Of a stretch of DNA of 64,000 nt, positions 29,615-60,961 are shown in pieces. The position numbers were made by a program, and so were the translations under genes. A model generated the notes under the pieces. It was given only the letters and a program-made list of their open reading frames with translations. It had not been told where the DNA came from and did not search any database. The stretch comes from Rubrivivax sp. (GTDB lineage: Bacteria > Pseudomonadota > Gammaproteobacteria > Burkholderiales > Burkholderiaceae_C). Position 1 is the stretch's first letter. Each line of letters begins with the position of its first letter. Where the stretch lies: positions 48,651 through 112,650 of the forward strand of contig JAJTDE010000004.1 in NCBI GenBank assembly GCA_021298085.1, given 5' to 3'.

Positions 29615-29699
<85 letters not shown>

Positions 29700-51916: not shown

Positions 51917-54316
51917 ATGTCTGCAACCCCACTGTCGACCGCCCTGGTCGTGCCGTTTGAACACCTGAGAATGACCGATGTCGAGGTGGTCGGCGGCAAG
52001 AACGCCTCCCTCGGCGAGATGATCAGCCAACTGGCCGCCACAGGCGTGCGGGTGCCCGGCGGTTTTGCCACGACGGCGCACGCCTTCCGACAGTTTCTGG
52101 CGCATGGCGGCCTGGCCGCGAAGATCGCGCAGAAGCTGGCCACGCTCGACACCGACGATGTTCGCGCCCTCGCCGAAGCGGGCGCCGAAATCCGCCAGTG
52201 GGTCATCGATACACCCTTCCCGGCCGACCTGGAAGCCGCCATCCGTGCCGAGTTTGCTCGCCTGACGGCCGACAACCCGGGCGCGTCGTTTGCGGTGCGT
52301 TCGTCGGCCACGGCCGAAGACCTGCCCGATGCGTCCTTTGCCGGCCAGCAGGAGACCTTCCTGAATGTGAGCGGCATCGACGACGTGCTGCACCGCATGA
52401 AGGAGGTGTTTGCCTCGCTCTACAACGATCGCGCCATCAGCTACCGCGTGCACAAGGGTTTTGCGCACAACGACGTGGCCCTGTCGGCGGGTGTCCAGCG
52501 CATGGTCCGGTCTGACCTGGGTTCTGCCGGCGTGATGTTCACCATCGACACCGAAAGCGGCTTCTCCGAGGTGGTGTTCATCACCTCCAGCTATGGCCTG
52601 GGCGAAACCGTGGTCCAAGGCGCCGTCAACCCCGACGAGTTCTACGTGCACAAGGCCGCGTTGCGCGCCGGCAAGCTGGCCGTCATCCGCCGCACGCTCG
52701 GTTCCAAGCTGATCCGCATGGAGTTTGCGTCAGACGAGGAAAAGGCTGCGTCGGGCAAGCTGGTTCGCACCGTGGACACCCCGCCAGAACAGCGCAACCG
52801 CTACTCGCTCAACGACGCCGAGGTGACCGAACTCGCTCGCTATGCGCTCATCATCGAGCAGCATTACGGCCGTCCGATGGACATCGAGTGGGGCAAGGAC
52901 GGCGCCGACGGGCGCCTGTACATCCTCCAGGCCCGCCCTGAGACCGTCAAGAGCCAGTCGGCAGGCCAGGTGGAACAGCGCTTCAAGCTCAAGGGCACCG
53001 GCACCATCCTGACCGAGGGCAGGGCCATCGGCCAGAAGATTGGTACGGGCCGGGTGCGCCTGGTGCACTCGCTCAACGACATGGACAAGGTCCAGGCCGG
53101 TGACGTGCTGGTCACCGACATGACCGACCCGAACTGGGAACCCGTCATGAAGCGGGCCAGCGCCATCGTCACCAACCGCGGCGGGCGCACCTGCCACGCG
53201 GCCATCATCGCGCGTGAGCTCGGCATTCCCGCGGTGGTCGGGTGCGGCGACGCCACCGAGAAGCTCAGCGATGGCAGCCTCGTCACCGTGGCCTGCTCCG
53301 AAGGGGACACCGGCTTCATCTTTGATGGCCTGCTGGAAACGGAAGTCAACGAGGTCAAGCGTGGCGAGATGCCGTACTGCCCCATCAAGATCATGATGAA
53401 CGTGGGCAACCCGCAACTCGCGTTTGACTTTGCGCAGATGCCGAATTCAGGCGTGGGGCTGGCACGGCTGGAATTCATCATCAACAACAACATCGGCGTG
53501 CACCCGAAGGCCATCCTCGACTACCCCAACGTCGACCCGGAGCTGAAGAAGGCCGTCGAATCGGTAGCCCGTGGCCATGCCTCACCCCGTGCCTTCTACG
53601 TGGACAAGCTGGTGGAAGGCGTGGCCACGATCGCCGCCGCCTTCTGGCCCAAGCCGGTCATCGTGCGCCTGTCGGATTTCAAGAGCAATGAATACCGCAA
53701 GCTGATTGGTGGCACCCGCTACGAGCCCGACGAGGAAAACCCGATGCTGGGCTTCCGCGGCGCCAGCCGCTATATCAGCGGCGAGTTCAGCGACGCCTTT
53801 GCGATGGAGTGCGAAGCGCTGCGACGTGTCCGCACGGAGATGGGCCTGACCAACGTCGAGATCATGGTGCCGTTTGTGCGCACCGTGCGCCAGGCCGAGC
53901 GTGTGGCTGAGATGCTTGCTGAACGGGGCCTCAAGCGGGGCGACAACGGCCTGCGCCTGATCATGATGTGCGAGGTGCCCAGCAACGCCATCCTGGCCGA
54001 CCAGTTCCTGAACCACTTCGACGGCATGTCCATCGGCTCGAATGACCTGACCCAGCTCACGCTGGGGCTGGACCGTGATTCAGGTCTCGAGCAGCTGGCC
54101 GGTGACTTCGACGAGCGCGACCCGGCCGTCAAGGCCATGATCTCGCGCGCCATCGCGGCCTGCCGCGCTACGGGCAAGTACGTGGGGATCTGCGGGCAGG
54201 GCCCCAGCGATCACCCGGACTTTGCCGAGTGGCTGGCCCAGGAAGGTATTGCGTCGATCTCCCTCAACCCCGATACGGTGGTCGACACCTGGGAGCGTCT
54301 GGCGGCGTTGCGCTGA
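51917..54316 (+). CDS. ppsA: Phosphoenolpyruvate synthase
   Basis: [42 protein letters not shown]-terminal [32 protein letters not shown]. Confidence 0.97.
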
Positions 54317-54570
54317 TAGCCCAGCAGCGGCCGGCTCGGTGCCGGCCGCGGGCGATTGCCGTCGTTGGAGGGAACTTCCTCGATCAGGTTCTTCCAGGCC
54401 AGCTCGATCAGCCACTCACGGGCCTGCGGCCCCAGCAGCCGACAGATCTCGTCATCGCTCAGCGTGCCATTGACGAGGATGAGCGCCGCGCGCTGGCGCG
54501 GGCTCAGGCGGTGGCTGCGAAGGGCCATCTCCTGTCGGCCCTTCGGGGTCTTTCGGTGGCATCGGGACAT
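54211..54570 (-). CDS. Hypothetical small protein; 3' end overlaps ppsA antisense
   Basis: [71 protein letters not shown]...; non-repetitive, HTH-like composition; start could be 54639, 54570 or 54528. Confidence 0.45.
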
Positions 54571-54657: not shown

Positions 54658-54674
54658 CTAGGGCGTATCCCTAG
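54658..54674. promoter_or_regulatory. 17-bp palindrome CTAGGGCGTATCCCTAG (putative operator)
   Basis: CTAGG-N7-CCTAG; same layout as 57468-57484. Confidence 0.5.
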
Positions 54675-54717
54675 TGAGGCGGACGTCCAACCCCGGACAT
54701 CAGGGGTTGCGCCAGGC

Positions 54718-55365
54718 TCAGGAAGCCGAGTTGTGCAGCCAGCGCGCGTTTTGCGCCATCCGCTGCAGCGGGCGAAAGGCCAGCCCGTGCCCGCGCTCCT
54801 GCCAGCGGCGCAGGGCCAGCAGCGCCAGTTGTGCGGTGGCCAGCGCGTCGGCCGCCGCCTGGTGCCGAGCCAGGCAGGTGATGCCGAATGCCTGAAGCCA
54901 GTCGTCGAGTGCCCGGTGGCTGTTGGTGTGCCACAGCTCCCTGAGCACCGGCGCCAGGTCCAGCCACGGGTTGTCCGGCTTGGCCAGGCCTGCCTTGTCA
55001 AAGGCCCGGTCCAGCATGACCTCGTCAAAGGCACTGTGATAGCCCAGCAGCGGTGAGGTCGCCGCCCAGGCCTGGAAGTCGCGCAGCGCCTGGGCAGGCT
55101 CCACACCGTCGCGCTGTGCTTGCACGCCAATGCCATGCAGCAGGATGTTGTCCTTGTCGAGCACTGGCGTGGCAGGCCGCAGGAAGACGGCAAAGCTGTC
55201 GCTGAGCTGGATCTGGGGCTGAGGCTGGGTCATGTCGATGGCCACTCCCGCGATCGCCAGCAGCTCGGCCGCGTGGGGGTCGAGCCCACTGGTTTCGACG
55301 TCCACGACCAGCCAGCGTGAATCATTCAGCGCGGCGGGGTTGGACCAGGGCCAGCGCCACGTCAT
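54718..55365 (-). CDS. DnaQ-like 3'-5' exonuclease
   Basis: LVVDVETSGLDPHAAELLAIAGVAID, LLGYHSAFDEVMLDRAF, HQAAADALATAQLALL. Confidence 0.9.
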   Translation of the reverse strand: MTWRWPWSNPAALNDSRWLVVDVETSGLDPHAAELLAIAGVAIDMTQPQPQIQLSDSFAVFLRPATPVLDKDNILLHGIGVQAQRDGVEPAQALRDFQAWAATSPLLGYHSAFDEVMLDRAFDKAGLAKPDNPWLDLAPVLRELWHTNSHRALDDWLQAFGITCLARHQAAADALATAQLALLALRRWQERGHGLAFRPLQRMAQNARWLHNSAS

Positions 55366-57275
55366 CGCTGGTAGTCCATTTCGAGGCGCTGCTGAAGCTG
55401 ACGTGCGATGCGCAGCGCGTCGCGCAGCACACGCTGGTCAATGGTGTTGAGTTCAGCCACCGGCAGACAGTTGGGGTTGTCCATGGGCCGTGTGGTCTCA
55501 GGGTCCATCTGGATGCGCAGCCTGAGCGACTGCAGGAATTCGAACGCAGTGACCCAGGCCTGCCATTCGCTGGGCGGTATCGCCTGGGCTTGCCCGTAGG
55601 CCTGTAGACGGTCGCGTGTGTTGGTGGCGGCGATGCCCGACGCCAACGCATAGATGCGAGCGGCGTCGACGATGATCGCCGTGCCCTGCAGCTTGAGGTC
55701 GACAACCGCCTGGCCGTCGACGTCCCGGGTTTCCACACTGCCCCGCCAGTTCAGGGGCGGCCGGCTGCGCAGGGCGTTCAAGGCCAGCTGCTTCATGAAG
55801 CGGGGCAGGCGCGCGGCGTGTTCGGCGATGTGCGTGCGCAGCTGCCCGGCCATCCCGGTGGCGCCGGCGATGCCGCGCAGATCAAAGAAGATGCTGGCGT
55901 TGAGCAGGTCCTCCGGCGCACCGTGCTGCATCCAGTGGTCGAAGCGGGCCAGCCACTCGTGCTGGGTGAGGCAGCAGTCGGGGTTGGAGGCCATCACCTT
56001 GCCCTTGCACAGCGGGTAACCGCACGCATCGAGCGCCTCGTTGGCGTCCAGCGCCATCGCCAGCCAGCGCTGGCGTTCATCGGCGGTGGTGTCATCGGCG
56101 AGCACCAGCCCGTTGTCCTGGTCGGTGGCGATGGTCTGTTCGCTCCGCCCTTCAGAGCCGAATGCCAGCCAGCAGGCGCGCTGCATGTCCAAACCGTGCT
56201 GCTGGGCCAGCAGCTGCACCAGGCGTTCGGCCAGGACATCGTTCAGGTGGGAAATCAGTGCCGTCAGCTGCCGGGCTTGCACCCCCTGGCCGATCAGGCT
56301 GCGCGCCAAGGCGCGGATCTGCGGTGCTGCGGCACGCAGGGCCGAAGTGTCCTTGGCGTAGCGCAGCTCGCTGCTGACCTGCTTGAGCGACAGGCGCTGC
56401 AGCGCAAACAGATCGCGCTCGCTGACGATGCTGACCAGCTTCTCACCGTCCATGATGGGCACGTGCCGGATGCCGTGGGCCGACATCGTCAAGGCAGCGT
56501 CCTGGACGGTCTGTTCAACACCCAGGGTGAGCACGGGCGCCGACATGACGTCCGACACCGGGCTGTCCAGCGGCACCTGGGGCAGGGTGATCCGGCCGAG
56601 CACGTCATGCCGGGTGACGATGCCCAGCGGGGCGCCGGTTCCGTCACCCACCAACACCGAACCGACCCGTTGCTGCTGCATCTGCTCAAGGGCTTCGCGC
56701 AGCAGCGTGTCGGGCCTGACACAAAGGGGCTGTCGGCGTGCGAGGCTGCCGAGGCTGGCTTCAAAGCTCTGCTGGGCCAATGTCTGCGACGCCATCTGGG
56801 CCTGCAAGGCCTGGCGGGACAAGTCCAGCAGCTGGACGATGCGCCGGTTGAGGAAATCCGCCAGCGGTGCACTGTGGCGAGCCAGTGTCTCGAGCGTCTC
56901 CACCGGAATCGCGAGGCAGAAGGTGTCGCCTTCGGCGGTGTAGTGAGACGTCACGGCCCGGCGTGCCAGTGCGGCGCCCACCGGGAACAGGTCACCTTCG
57001 TCGTAGCGGAAGTTTCCAGCGGATTCTGCCAGCCCTCGCCGCCCGATGATGCCGCCCTGCATCACGCACATCACCTGCGTCACGGCGCCGCTGGCGGGTG
57101 TCAGCACCGGCTCATCGGGTGCGAAGTAACGCATCGTGGCAGCGGTGGCCAGCCCGACCAACTGATCAGGCTGCATCTGGGCAAATGGCGCGTGTGCGGC
57201 GAGCTGACGTGCCAGGCCGCTCACCAGCTGCGATGATGGGGTGGTCTTCGCGCGGACGGATTGGGCAGTGGGCAT
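55362..57275 (-). CDS. Cyclic nucleotide-binding / CBS-pair / DUF294 nucleotidyltransferase-like protein
   Basis: cNMP-like N-domain, two CBS motifs (GIVTRHDVLGRI, HGIRHVPIMDGEKLVSIVSERDLFA), FGSEGRSEQTIATDQDNGLV nucleotidyltransferase motif. Confidence 0.92.
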   Translation of the reverse strand: MPTAQSVRAKTTPSSQLVSGLARQLAAHAPFAQMQPDQLVGLATAATMRYFAPDEPVLTPASGAVTQVMCVMQGGIIGRRGLAESAGNFRYDEGDLFPVGAALARRAVTSHYTAEGDTFCLAIPVETLETLARHSAPLADFLNRRIVQLLDLSRQALQAQMASQTLAQQSFEASLGSLARRQPLCVRPDTLLREALEQMQQQRVGSVLVGDGTGAPLGIVTRHDVLGRITLPQVPLDSPVSDVMSAPVLTLGVEQTVQDAALTMSAHGIRHVPIMDGEKLVSIVSERDLFALQRLSLKQVSSELRYAKDTSALRAAAPQIRALARSLIGQGVQARQLTALISHLNDVLAERLVQLLAQQHGLDMQRACWLAFGSEGRSEQTIATDQDNGLVLADDTTADERQRWLAMALDANEALDACGYPLCKGKVMASNPDCCLTQHEWLARFDHWMQHGAPEDLLNASIFFDLRGIAGATGMAGQLRTHIAEHAARLPRFMKQLALNALRSRPPLNWRGSVETRDVDGQAVVDLKLQGTAIIVDAARIYALASGIAATNTRDRLQAYGQAQAIPPSEWQAWVTAFEFLQSLRLRIQMDPETTRPMDNPNCLPVAELNTIDQRVLRDALRIARQLQQRLEMDYQR

Positions 57276-57467
57276 GGCGGCTCTCAGGCTGCACGCAGCG
57301 CAAGTGCGGATGGGCACATGGTATGCGAGCTGTTGATGGATGCGCGACACGAGTTGGCGGCCGTATTGGGCCGAGCTGGCCTGTCTGCCGCGTGGGCCTG
57401 GCGCAGGGTTTATGCGCACAGGGCTTTCACCCGTTTGCGGGGAGGGCAGTTCGAGGCCGGGGTGTCT

Positions 57468-57484
57468 CTAGGTGGAACACCTAG
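57468..57484. promoter_or_regulatory. 17-bp palindrome CTAGGTGGAACACCTAG (putative operator) in the divergent intergenic region
   Basis: Perfect 7-bp arms with 3-nt spacer; CTAGG-N7-CCTAG. Confidence 0.55.
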
Positions 57485-57569
57485 GGAGGTCTGCCCGGGG
57501 TTGGGCTGTTCAGTCAGAAACCGGTAAGCGCCCATTGACCATGATGTGAGCACTTGTGAGAAATGACAA

Positions 57570-57866
57570 ATGCTCGCCTTTCTGAACGCCGCCCAATTGG
57601 TTCTGTACATCGCTCTGCTGGCCCTGTTGGGTCAGGGGGTTTTGTTCGTCCTGGCCGGTGAAGGGCGTGACGGCAACTTCTTCTACGGACTGTTCAAGGT
57701 CATCACCAAACCTTTCACCTGGGTGGCGCGCAAGCTGACGCCGCGAAAGGTGGCCGATCAGCATGTTCCCTTCGTCGCGTTTTTCCTGTTGTTGGTGCTT
57801 TACGCCGTGGTGACCCTCGAAAAGATCAGCTATTGCGTCAATGCGCAGATGGTGGGCTGCACATGA
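57570..57866 (+). CDS. Small membrane protein, two predicted TM segments
   Basis: MLAFLNAAQLVLYIALLALLGQGVLFVLAGEGRDGNFFYGLFKVITKPFTWVARKLTPRKVADQHVPFVAFFLLLVLYAVVTLEKISYCVNAQMVGCT; translationally coupled to the TPR gene. Confidence 0.75.
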   Translation: MLAFLNAAQLVLYIALLALLGQGVLFVLAGEGRDGNFFYGLFKVITKPFTWVARKLTPRKVADQHVPFVAFFLLLVLYAVVTLEKISYCVNAQMVGCT

Positions 57867-58441
57867 ACTTGCTTTCACATGCCTTTCTCAAGTGGCAGGC
57901 GATGCTCTGGTACGCGTTGGGCATGACAGACCGTGCCTGCCGCACCTACGACCGCCTGCTGGAACAATGGCCGAATGACGCCAAAGCCCTGGCTGCGCGT
58001 ACCCATCTCCATGCGCAGGACAAGCGCCTGAGCCTGGCGCTCGCCGATTCAGAGCGCCTGGTGGCGCTGAAGCCCGAGGACGCACGTGCCTGGTTCAACC
58101 ATGGCTACCTGCTGGAACTCGCCGAGCAGTGGGACGCAGCCCTCGCCGCCTTTGAACGCTCGGTGACCCTCTCTCCCAAGCTGGACCGCGCCTGGTATGG
58201 CATGGGCCTGGTGCTGATCAGGCTGCAGCGTTATGACGATGCGGTGGAGGCGCTTCAGCGCAACACCGAGCTGCAGCCGATGAGTCCTTATGGCTGGTAC
58301 CAGCTGGCGCGGGTGCATGTTGATCGGCAGCAGCCTGAAGAGGCCTTGAAGGTGATCAAGCACCTCAAGGGCTTCGAGCCCAAGGTGGCTGCGCAACTCG
58401 AGCGTGAAACAGGTTTGATCGTCGGTCAGGCCAGTGCCTGA
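57863..58441 (+). CDS. Tetratricopeptide repeat protein
   Basis: TPR-like units (ARAWFNHGYLLELAEQWDAALAAFERSVTLSPKLDRAWYGMGLVLIRLQRYDDAVEAL); ATGA overlap. Confidence 0.88.
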   Translation: MNLLSHAFLKWQAMLWYALGMTDRACRTYDRLLEQWPNDAKALAARTHLHAQDKRLSLALADSERLVALKPEDARAWFNHGYLLELAEQWDAALAAFERSVTLSPKLDRAWYGMGLVLIRLQRYDDAVEALQRNTELQPMSPYGWYQLARVHVDRQQPEEALKVIKHLKGFEPKVAAQLERETGLIVGQASA

Positions 58442-58566: not shown

Positions 58567-58821
58567 ATGCAGGTGAGTGAAAACCACCAGCGTTACTGGC
58601 AGAAGAACTTGCGGATCACAGGCATCCTGCTGTTCATCTGGTTTGTGGTGACGTATGTGGTCGCGTTTTTCGCGCGCGACTTGAGCTTTTCTTTCTTTGG
58701 GTGGCCATTCAGCTTCTGGGTTGGTTCCCAGGGGTCGCTGGTCGTCTATGTGCTCATCATTGGTTTCTATGCTCGTTACATGAACAAGCTGGACCAAGAG
58801 CACGGCGTGGCGGAGGACTGA
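58567..58821 (+). CDS. DUF4212 protein, sodium/substrate symporter small subunit
   Basis: ENHQRYWQKNLRITGILLFIWFVVTYVVAFFARDLSFSFFGWPFSFWVGSQGSLVVYVLIIGFYARYMNKLD. Confidence 0.93.
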   Translation: MQVSENHQRYWQKNLRITGILLFIWFVVTYVVAFFARDLSFSFFGWPFSFWVGSQGSLVVYVLIIGFYARYMNKLDQEHGVAED

Positions 58822-58825
58822 CACC

Positions 58826-60961
58826 ATGGCAGGCTTGAATTTTGAAGCGAATCCCGCGTCTTCCTCGAAAGAGGCTAACGCGGCATTCAAGAAGCAGCTG
58901 AACAAGGTGTACGCCTGGTACACGGGCGGCTTTGTCGTCTTCGTGATCCTGCTGGCGATCGCCGAGCAGATGGGGCTGCAGCGCGGGGCGATCGGCATGA
59001 TCTTCCTGCTGGCCACCGTGGCGCTGTATGCCGGCATCGGCATCATGAGCCGCACCAACGACGCCTCGGAGTACTACGTGGCCGGGCGGCGCGTGCCCGC
59101 CATCTACAACGGCATGGCCACCGGCGCCGACTGGATGAGCGCTGCCTCGTTCATTGGCATGGCCGGTACGCTCTACCTGAGCGGTTACGGCGGTCTGGCC
59201 TTCATCATGGGCTGGACGGGCGGTTACTGCCTGGTGGCGCTGTTCCTGGCGCCGTACCTTCGCAAGTTTGGCCAGTTCACGATCCCTGACTTCCTGGGTG
59301 CACGCTACGAAGGTAACGCCGCACGCCTGGTGGGCATCGTCATCGCCATCATCTGCTCCTTCGTGTACGTGGTGGCGCAGATCTATGGCGTGGGCCTGAT
59401 CACCACCCGTCTGTCGGGGCTGCCGTTTGAAATCGGCATCTTCGTGGGCCTGGGTGGTATTCTGGTCTGCTCGTTCCTGGGCGGCATGCGTGCCGTGACC
59501 TGGACGCAGGTGGCGCAGTACATCATCCTGATCATTGCCTACCTGATTCCGCTGGTCTGGCTGTCGGTCAAGCAGACGGGTGTGCCGATTCCTCAGGTCA
59601 TCTATGGTTACCAGCTGGAGAAGATCACGGCGCGTGAAGCCCAGCTGATCGCCGACCCGAAGGAAAAGGAAGTCATTGCTGTCTTCAAGAAGCAATCTGA
59701 CGACCTGGCCGCCAAGCTGAAGGATGTGCCTGCCGCGCTCGCCGCCGACAAGGCTGCAGCTGCCAAGAAGGTTGAAGACCTGAAGGCCGCCAATGCCCCG
59801 GCGACGGACGTTCAGGCTGCCGAGAAGGCGCTGGCTGCCTTGCCCAAGGACGATGCCGCCGCCAAGGACTCGTGGACCAAAGCCAAGGCCGCTGCCGATG
59901 GGCGAACCAAAGATCTGGCCGGCATGCCGCGCCACGCCCAGCAGTTCGCGGGCAATCCTGACGGCGATGCCAAGGCCCAGAAGACCTACGACGAGTCTCG
60001 TCGCAACTTCCTGGCACTGGTGTTCTGCTTGATGGTCGGTACGGCTGCCCTGCCGCACATCCTGATGCGCTACTACACCACGCCTTCCGTGAAGGAAGCG
60101 CGTGAGTCGGTGACCTGGTCGCTGTTCTTCATCTTCCTGCTGTACTTCTCGGCCCCGGCCCTGGCCGTGCTCGTGAAGTACGAGGTGTTCAACGTCCTGG
60201 TCGGCACGCCGTTTGACAAGCTGCCTGGCTGGATCGCGGCGTGGAACAAGGTGGACCCTTCGTTGTTGAGCGTCTCTGACATCAACAAGGATGGCATCTT
60301 CCAGCTGGGTGAAATGCGCATTGGTGGCGACATCATCGTGTTGGCCACGCCGGAAATCGGCGGTCTGCCCTATGTCATCTCCGGCATGGTGGCCGCTGGT
60401 GGCTTGGCGGCTGCGCTGTCAACCGCTGACGGCCTGCTGCTGACCATCGCCAACGCGCTGTCGCACGACCTGTACTACAAGATGATCGACCCCAATGCGT
60501 CTACCAGCCGCCGGGTGATGATCTCCAAGTCGCTGCTGTTGATTGTTGCCGTGGCTGCCGCGTATGTGGCCTACACGGTGTATGTCACCAAGCAGGCTGA
60601 CATCTTGTTCCTGGTGTCTGCGGCGTTCTCGTTCGCTGCGGCGGGCTTCTTCCCGGCCCTGGTGCTGGGGGTGTTCTGGAAACGGGCCACCAAGTGGGGT
60701 GCCGTGTTGGGCATGATCGCCGGCTTCGGCGTCACGTTCTACTACATGGCCACCAACCACGCCTGGATGCGCAGCATCTTCGGTGTCACCCAGCCGGTTG
60801 ACCTGTGGTACGGCATCCTGCCGATCTCCGCGGGTGTGTTTGGTGTTCCGATCGGCTTTGCGGTCATCATCATCGTGAGCCTGTTGACCCCCGCGCCGAA
60901 GTCTGACATTCAGGAACTGGTGGAGCACGTGCGCTACCCGAACCTGCGGCCAGCACGCTGA
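58826..60961 (+). CDS. Sodium:solute symporter large subunit (VC_2705-type / ActP-related)
   Basis: SSS family TM pattern, RRVPAIYNGMATGADWMSAASFIGMAGTLYLSGYGGLAF, follows the DUF4212 subunit; carries an internal hydrophilic insertion. Confidence 0.92.
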   Translation: MAGLNFEANPASSSKEANAAFKKQLNKVYAWYTGGFVVFVILLAIAEQMGLQRGAIGMIFLLATVALYAGIGIMSRTNDASEYYVAGRRVPAIYNGMATGADWMSAASFIGMAGTLYLSGYGGLAFIMGWTGGYCLVALFLAPYLRKFGQFTIPDFLGARYEGNAARLVGIVIAIICSFVYVVAQIYGVGLITTRLSGLPFEIGIFVGLGGILVCSFLGGMRAVTWTQVAQYIILIIAYLIPLVWLSVKQTGVPIPQVIYGYQLEKITAREAQLIADPKEKEVIAVFKKQSDDLAAKLKDVPAALAADKAAAAKKVEDLKAANAPATDVQAAEKALAALPKDDAAAKDSWTKAKAAADGRTKDLAGMPRHAQQFAGNPDGDAKAQKTYDESRRNFLALVFCLMVGTAALPHILMRYYTTPSVKEARESVTWSLFFIFLLYFSAPALAVLVKYEVFNVLVGTPFDKLPGWIAAWNKVDPSLLSVSDINKDGIFQLGEMRIGGDIIVLATPEIGGLPYVISGMVAAGGLAAALSTADGLLLTIANALSHDLYYKMIDPNASTSRRVMISKSLLLIVAVAAAYVAYTVYVTKQADILFLVSAAFSFAAAGFFPALVLGVFWKRATKWGAVLGMIAGFGVTFYYMATNHAWMRSIFGVTQPVDLWYGILPISAGVFGVPIGFAVIIIVSLLTPAPKSDIQELVEHVRYPNLRPAR

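Follow-up and report, generated by a model that had tools for sequence, protein, structure and literature searches.

Two perfect palindromes near a VC_2705-type symporter operon in Rubrivivax sp.: one appears to be the local copy of a conserved promoter element

Do two perfect palindromes of the same layout, lying 2.8 kb apart, mark the sites of one regulator, or are they of different nature? The question is raised by a stretch of 64,000 nucleotides of Rubrivivax sp. DNA, hereafter the window, in which the initial annotation had noticed CTAGG-N7-CCTAG at two places. Both were recovered with exactly the same coordinates and letters: site 1 (CTAGGGCGTATCCCTAG, 54658-54674) and site 2 (CTAGGTGGAACACCTAG, 57468-57484), neither being assigned to a strand. 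The pattern occurs twice in the window versus 0.00 times expected from dinucleotide shuffles, and the claim that the 64 kb hold no other exact copy was confirmed by the window scan and by the genome-wide scan that had been proposed, as the 5.06-Mb assembly contains no exact match besides sites 1 and 2. Allowing one mismatch adds four further matches across the assembly. When up to two are tolerated, the window has 14 matches versus 11.8 expected, which is no excess, so that the signal comes from the exact copies. Such a perfect 17-bp palindrome is rare because CTAG is strongly under-represented in the genome: it was counted 79 times in the 686 kb examined and 10 times in the window (66% GC), where four of the 10 fall within the two palindromes. 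A search of 71 other genus members gave 27 exact copies (about 0.4 per genome), a rate from which post hoc arithmetic gives a chance of roughly 5e-4 that, given one match, another falls within 2.8 kb of it. At 29656, the window has a third CTAG-N9-CTAG, which was discarded as a further site, being the anticodon arm of tRNA-Leu(CAG), and the recurring CTAGGTTCAGGTCCTAG among the matches at order level was set aside as resembling the same arm, by analogy with the tRNA of the window. In relatives, exact copies lie near the starts of TonB-dependent receptor genes in three cases (L029, L037 and L040) and near the start of hemA in two others (L027 and L039).

Site 2 precedes a plus-strand operon that begins with a small membrane protein of 98 aa (57570-57866) belonging to no Pfam or NCBIfam family, followed by a TPR protein recognized by its domain match (57863-58441), the DUF4212 small subunit of a symporter (58567-58821; PF13937) and a sodium/solute symporter of the VC_2705 family (58826-60961). 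Both subunits exceed the cut-offs of their families (101.7 versus 26.05 bits for TIGR03647 and 788.8 versus 320.75 bits for TIGR03648), which identifies a two-subunit VC_2705 symporter operon. On the minus strand are encoded a CBS-DUF294-DUF294_C protein (55362-57275), identified by Pfam and synteny and divergent here, and a 3'-5' exonuclease of the RNase_T fold (54718-55365; PF00929). The canonical order in relatives is ppsR (minus strand), ppsA, two upstream elements A and B, small membrane protein, TPR protein, DUF4212, symporter, DUF294, exonuclease and rpsF, with all genes after ppsR on the plus strand and DUF294 second to last in the operon. The window and one relative, G038, differ in that the DUF294-exonuclease pair is encoded on the minus strand and separates ppsA from the operon.

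The footprinting set was defined by the first operon gene, found in 43 of the 71 genus genomes searched, the window's own included, and in 16 named loci including Rubrivivax MAGs, Comamonas and Rhodocyclales. Upstream of these orthologues, two blocks of DNA are conserved, elements A and B. In relatives, element A has the form TAGGG-WAAS-NCCTA, TAGG and CCTA being six bases apart as a rule; site 2 sits at its position with seven bases instead of six, a form also carried by G011 (CTAGGGGAAAGACCTAG). Element A starts 43-44 bp ahead of element B in most genus members. Of the 35 B-bearing promoters, 26 have the core of A (GGGNAANNCC) at -42 or -41 relative to B, versus 0.03 expected. The orthologous promoters thus present an inverted-repeat layout of about 5-4-5 with partly symmetric arms, five full pairs being formed in 7 of the 26 copies. 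Since most relatives carry the six-base spacing and arms that are only partly symmetric, the perfect N7 palindrome is, as judged from the orthologous promoters, a local variant of element A, and CTAGG-N7-CCTAG itself was abandoned as a functional consensus. Conservation of the site at orthologous promoters, on which the earlier proposal depended, was observed in most genus members and supports site 2 as putative regulatory DNA. A palindrome that strikes by its perfection can therefore be an incidental form of a site that is looser and widely conserved.

The arms of element A co-vary in some relatives (TCAGG/CCTGA, ATAGG/CCTAT, TTAGG/CCTAA), and a change of spacing from six to seven would be easier for a hairpin loop, as if the palindromes acted as RNA hairpins (attenuator or terminator) and not as protein sites. 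This explanation is scarcely credible, however, given that RNAalifold returned no consensus structure, that the presumed -10 comes downstream of A, that the full five-pair arms are missing in 19 of the 26 copies and that neither site has a T-run terminator. A dimeric regulator, as initially proposed, is plausible at element A; the LuxR/NarL type suggested for it is unsupported and amounts to a guess. Palindromes of the NreC-type NarL/LuxR regulators have the layout TAGGG-N4-CCCTA. Element A is like them in its 5-4-5 arrangement, a likeness that covers layout alone, and unlike them in being imperfectly symmetric in most relatives; NreC-type sites are GC-rich palindromes (PMC5694512).

The second block had been overlooked in the initial annotation. 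In the window, element B (57513-57528, plus strand; GTCAGAAACCGGTAAG) is an 11-bp direct repeat, GTCAG-AAACCG-GTAAG, of which the consensus is GTMAG-N6-GTAAG. It is present in 35 of the 43 orthologous upstream regions of the genus and invariant across 33 aligned promoters, save for GTAAG or GTCAG in the first unit. The pattern has three matches genome-wide, the two others (L105 and L106) being rejected as both lie within coding frames. About 10 bp after B, relatives carry a weak -10-like MAASAGT, whose counterpart in the window, CCATGAT (57539-57545, plus strand), is degenerate and placed by position only; the Comamonas loci retain B with a better -10 and have no element A. Pho boxes and other sites of the OmpR family consist of two direct units spaced by an 11-bp step; they replace the -35 and end up about 10 bp before the -10. 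Element B shares this tandem geometry in its direct units, its 11-bp step, its 10 bp to the -10 and its -35 position. It differs from the Pho box in its unit, GTMAG and not GTCAT, and in its genes, which concern carboxylates and not phosphate, binding at B being only predicted. On the opposite strand, a sigma-70-like match (TTGTCA-17-CATCAT, 57541-57569, minus strand) covers the presumed plus-strand -10, so that the divergent DUF294 promoter may overlap that of the operon after rearrangement.

Elements A and B come apart in four rearranged relatives. In G008, G011 and G054, a block encoding an SLC5-type kinase, a stand-alone receiver, an exonuclease and DUF294 is inserted between the TPR and DUF4212 genes (L268:1896-8560, L272:2095-8706 and L269:4869-11526, respectively), and G038 exhibits a longer TPR-DUF4212 gap. 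In all four, B is found directly before the DUF4212-symporter pair, and A is still located ahead of the small membrane gene, where G008 additionally retains a B. Because of this separation, element B would belong to the symporter and element A to the small-membrane/TPR promoter, the rearranged genomes serving as natural experiments that link each element to its gene. The same genomes bear on the idea that one regulator binds A and B as a composite site in which A, lying upstream, is auxiliary. Such an arrangement would fit the fixed spacing of 43-44 bp, about four helical turns, and the GTAAG that some copies of A share with B, but it is made distinctly unlikely by the clean separation in these four relatives, by the Comamonas loci with B and without A, and by actP promoters that likewise have B units and no A.

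The genome's own classical DUF485-actP operon is preceded by GTCAG-N6-GTCAG, 10 bp ahead of a similar -10, and further GTMAG-like units follow upstream at 11-bp steps. Among 30 actP loci examined in the genus, 20 have the exact GTCAG-N6-GTCAG at this distance from the -10, and nine more have it with one mismatch. The genome was scanned for B by profile searches, using a profile built from both promoter sets (symporter operon and actP), and the three best sites genome-wide are those of actP (E 0.010), the symporter operon (0.013) and prpE (0.038), the last starting 67 bp upstream of this propionate--CoA ligase gene. As actP and the symporter operon had built the profile, prpE is the sole independent match. 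When a composite A+B profile was used for the genome scan, the symporter operon alone clearly scored. The occurrence of B before actP, the symporter operon and prpE suggests, at the level of sequence, a short-chain-carboxylate regulon; the link to carboxylate uptake first drawn from the palindromes is retained through element B, and a two-site regulon of sites 1 and 2 is unsupported.

With a probability of about 0.6, we favour a two-element promoter in which site 2, the local element A, is a putative regulator-binding site of the small-membrane/TPR/DUF4212/VC_2705-symporter operon, B is the putative site of a second regulator, and site 1 is a palindrome separate from the copy of element A. The second regulator would bind B at the -35 position and recruit RNA polymerase to the weak -10, an OmpR/PhoB-type winged-helix response regulator being the closest candidate by site geometry, with the SLC5-type kinase as its likely, unproven sensor. 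Since B is also found before the actP operon and prpE, it probably switches on genes for the uptake and activation of short-chain carboxylates. The target of A would be the small-membrane/TPR promoter and that of B the symporter, the usual gene order placing both at one promoter. The sequences themselves show the conservation, the spacing, the separability of A and B and the set of genes that carry B; we infer protein binding, the direction of regulation, the family of the regulator and the nature of the inducing acids. Three observations count against this account: the window's own copy is atypical, A having N7 spacing and the -10 being degenerate; prpE, the one match independent of the profile, has an E of 0.04; and the receiver beside the SLC5-type kinase lacks a DNA-binding domain.

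At the actP locus (L171:5735-14941, G000 C2), DUF485-actP is followed by genes for CBS-DUF294, an SLC5-type kinase, a receiver that stands alone and a large protein of the exonuclease type. This is a second cluster in which these families accompany a symporter, and a block of the same kind as that inserted in the symporter operon of three relatives. In Pseudomonas fluorescens, CrbS/CrbR controls an acetate regulon through ACTU, a 17-bp inverted repeat (PMC5715377). The two systems have in common actP, acs, the gene of a DUF294 signalling protein and related genes, an SLC5-type sensor kinase, and a regulator site that adjoins the -35/-10 region (PMC5715377); as for a CrbR-type partner, the kinase and receiver of the actP locus were found. 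The short-chain-carboxylate regulon suggested by the B profile would be comparable to that of CrbR. Unlike ACTU, however, B is an 11-bp direct repeat, and the receiver beside the kinase at the actP locus was found to have no DNA-binding domain, that of LuxR included. The ACTU motif was rejected here, its best promoter score being 3.0 versus 14.9-24.8 at known sites, and when scored against the Pseudomonas sites it is absent at actP and prpE. Similarly, in Sinorhizobium an SLC5/STAC kinase of the RpuS/RpuR system controls the pyruvate symporter gene mctP through a direct-repeat promoter element (PMC9100948). A carboxylate symporter, a direct repeat in the promoter and no recognisable -35 are shared with this system (PMC9100948), whereas in Sinorhizobium the repeat extends from -80 to -43 and B, with its step of 11 bp, occupies the -35 position; RpuR is moreover of the LuxR type (PMC9100948), unlike the regulator proposed for B.

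The wider proposal of an undescribed Burkholderiales regulon for short-chain carboxylates, with GTMAG-N6-GTMAG at the -35 before actP, the VC_2705 symporter operon and prpE, the SLC5-type kinase and stand-alone receiver as input, and A tuning the small-membrane/TPR genes, is tentative and falls slightly short of even odds. Element B carries the prediction, made from sequence, that DUF4212-containing VC_2705 symporters are co-regulated with acetate and propionate genes. Literature searches found no paper mentioning DUF4212, and they also returned nothing on GTCAG/GTAAG direct repeats or on a beta-proteobacterial actP regulator.

Site 1, a perfect palindrome of the form CTAGGG-N5-CCCTAG, lies in the ppsA/exonuclease gap of the rearranged order, between genes moved by the rearrangement. 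The small ORF beside it (54211-54570, minus strand) is a shortened member of the KTAKG..EIETR..LILVDG family; ppsA, encoded on the opposite strand, overlaps the 3' end of this ORF. A link to ppsA and a gluconeogenic regulon, suggested from this proximity, was not borne out: ppsA reads towards site 1 and ends before it, and in most relatives it simply precedes the operon. G038, the only syntenic relative, has in the same gap TCCCTAGGGTGAGGCGAACG where the window has TCCCTAGTGAGGCGGACG, the right half and flank being kept and the left half absent, and the palindrome is absent at 23 paralogous loci of the small minus-strand ORF family. Site 1 was also rejected as a duplicate of site 2, as their flanks share only CCTAGnGAGG, which is too little.

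Site 1 could thus be a chance palindrome, without function, in DNA reshuffled by the rearrangement. We give this an even chance: the lack of a footprint in G038 and at the paralogous loci and the frequency of N6/N7 palindromes of such type in the genus (about 0.4 per genome) speak for it, and its closeness to site 2 and the scarcity of CTAG speak against it. That closeness, about 5e-4 by post hoc calculation, is also the main argument for one dimeric regulator binding both palindromes and co-controlling the genes around them. They are the only exact sites of the genome, both fall outside the main genes, and the type recurs at promoters, since some relatives have similar exact palindromes upstream of hemA or of genes for TonB receptors. 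This shared regulon is nevertheless unlikely, as the conserved form of site 2 has N6 spacing and imperfect arms, and site 1 is broken in its sole syntenic relative and missing at the promoters of its neighbour gene's paralogues; of the two sites, only site 2 has a footprint. Apart from these two sites, an N6 form (CTAGGGTTACTCCTAG, G000 C156:36082) was observed immediately ahead of a TATACT-like -10, at some distance upstream of an Ala-rich ORF that resembles a lipoprotein.
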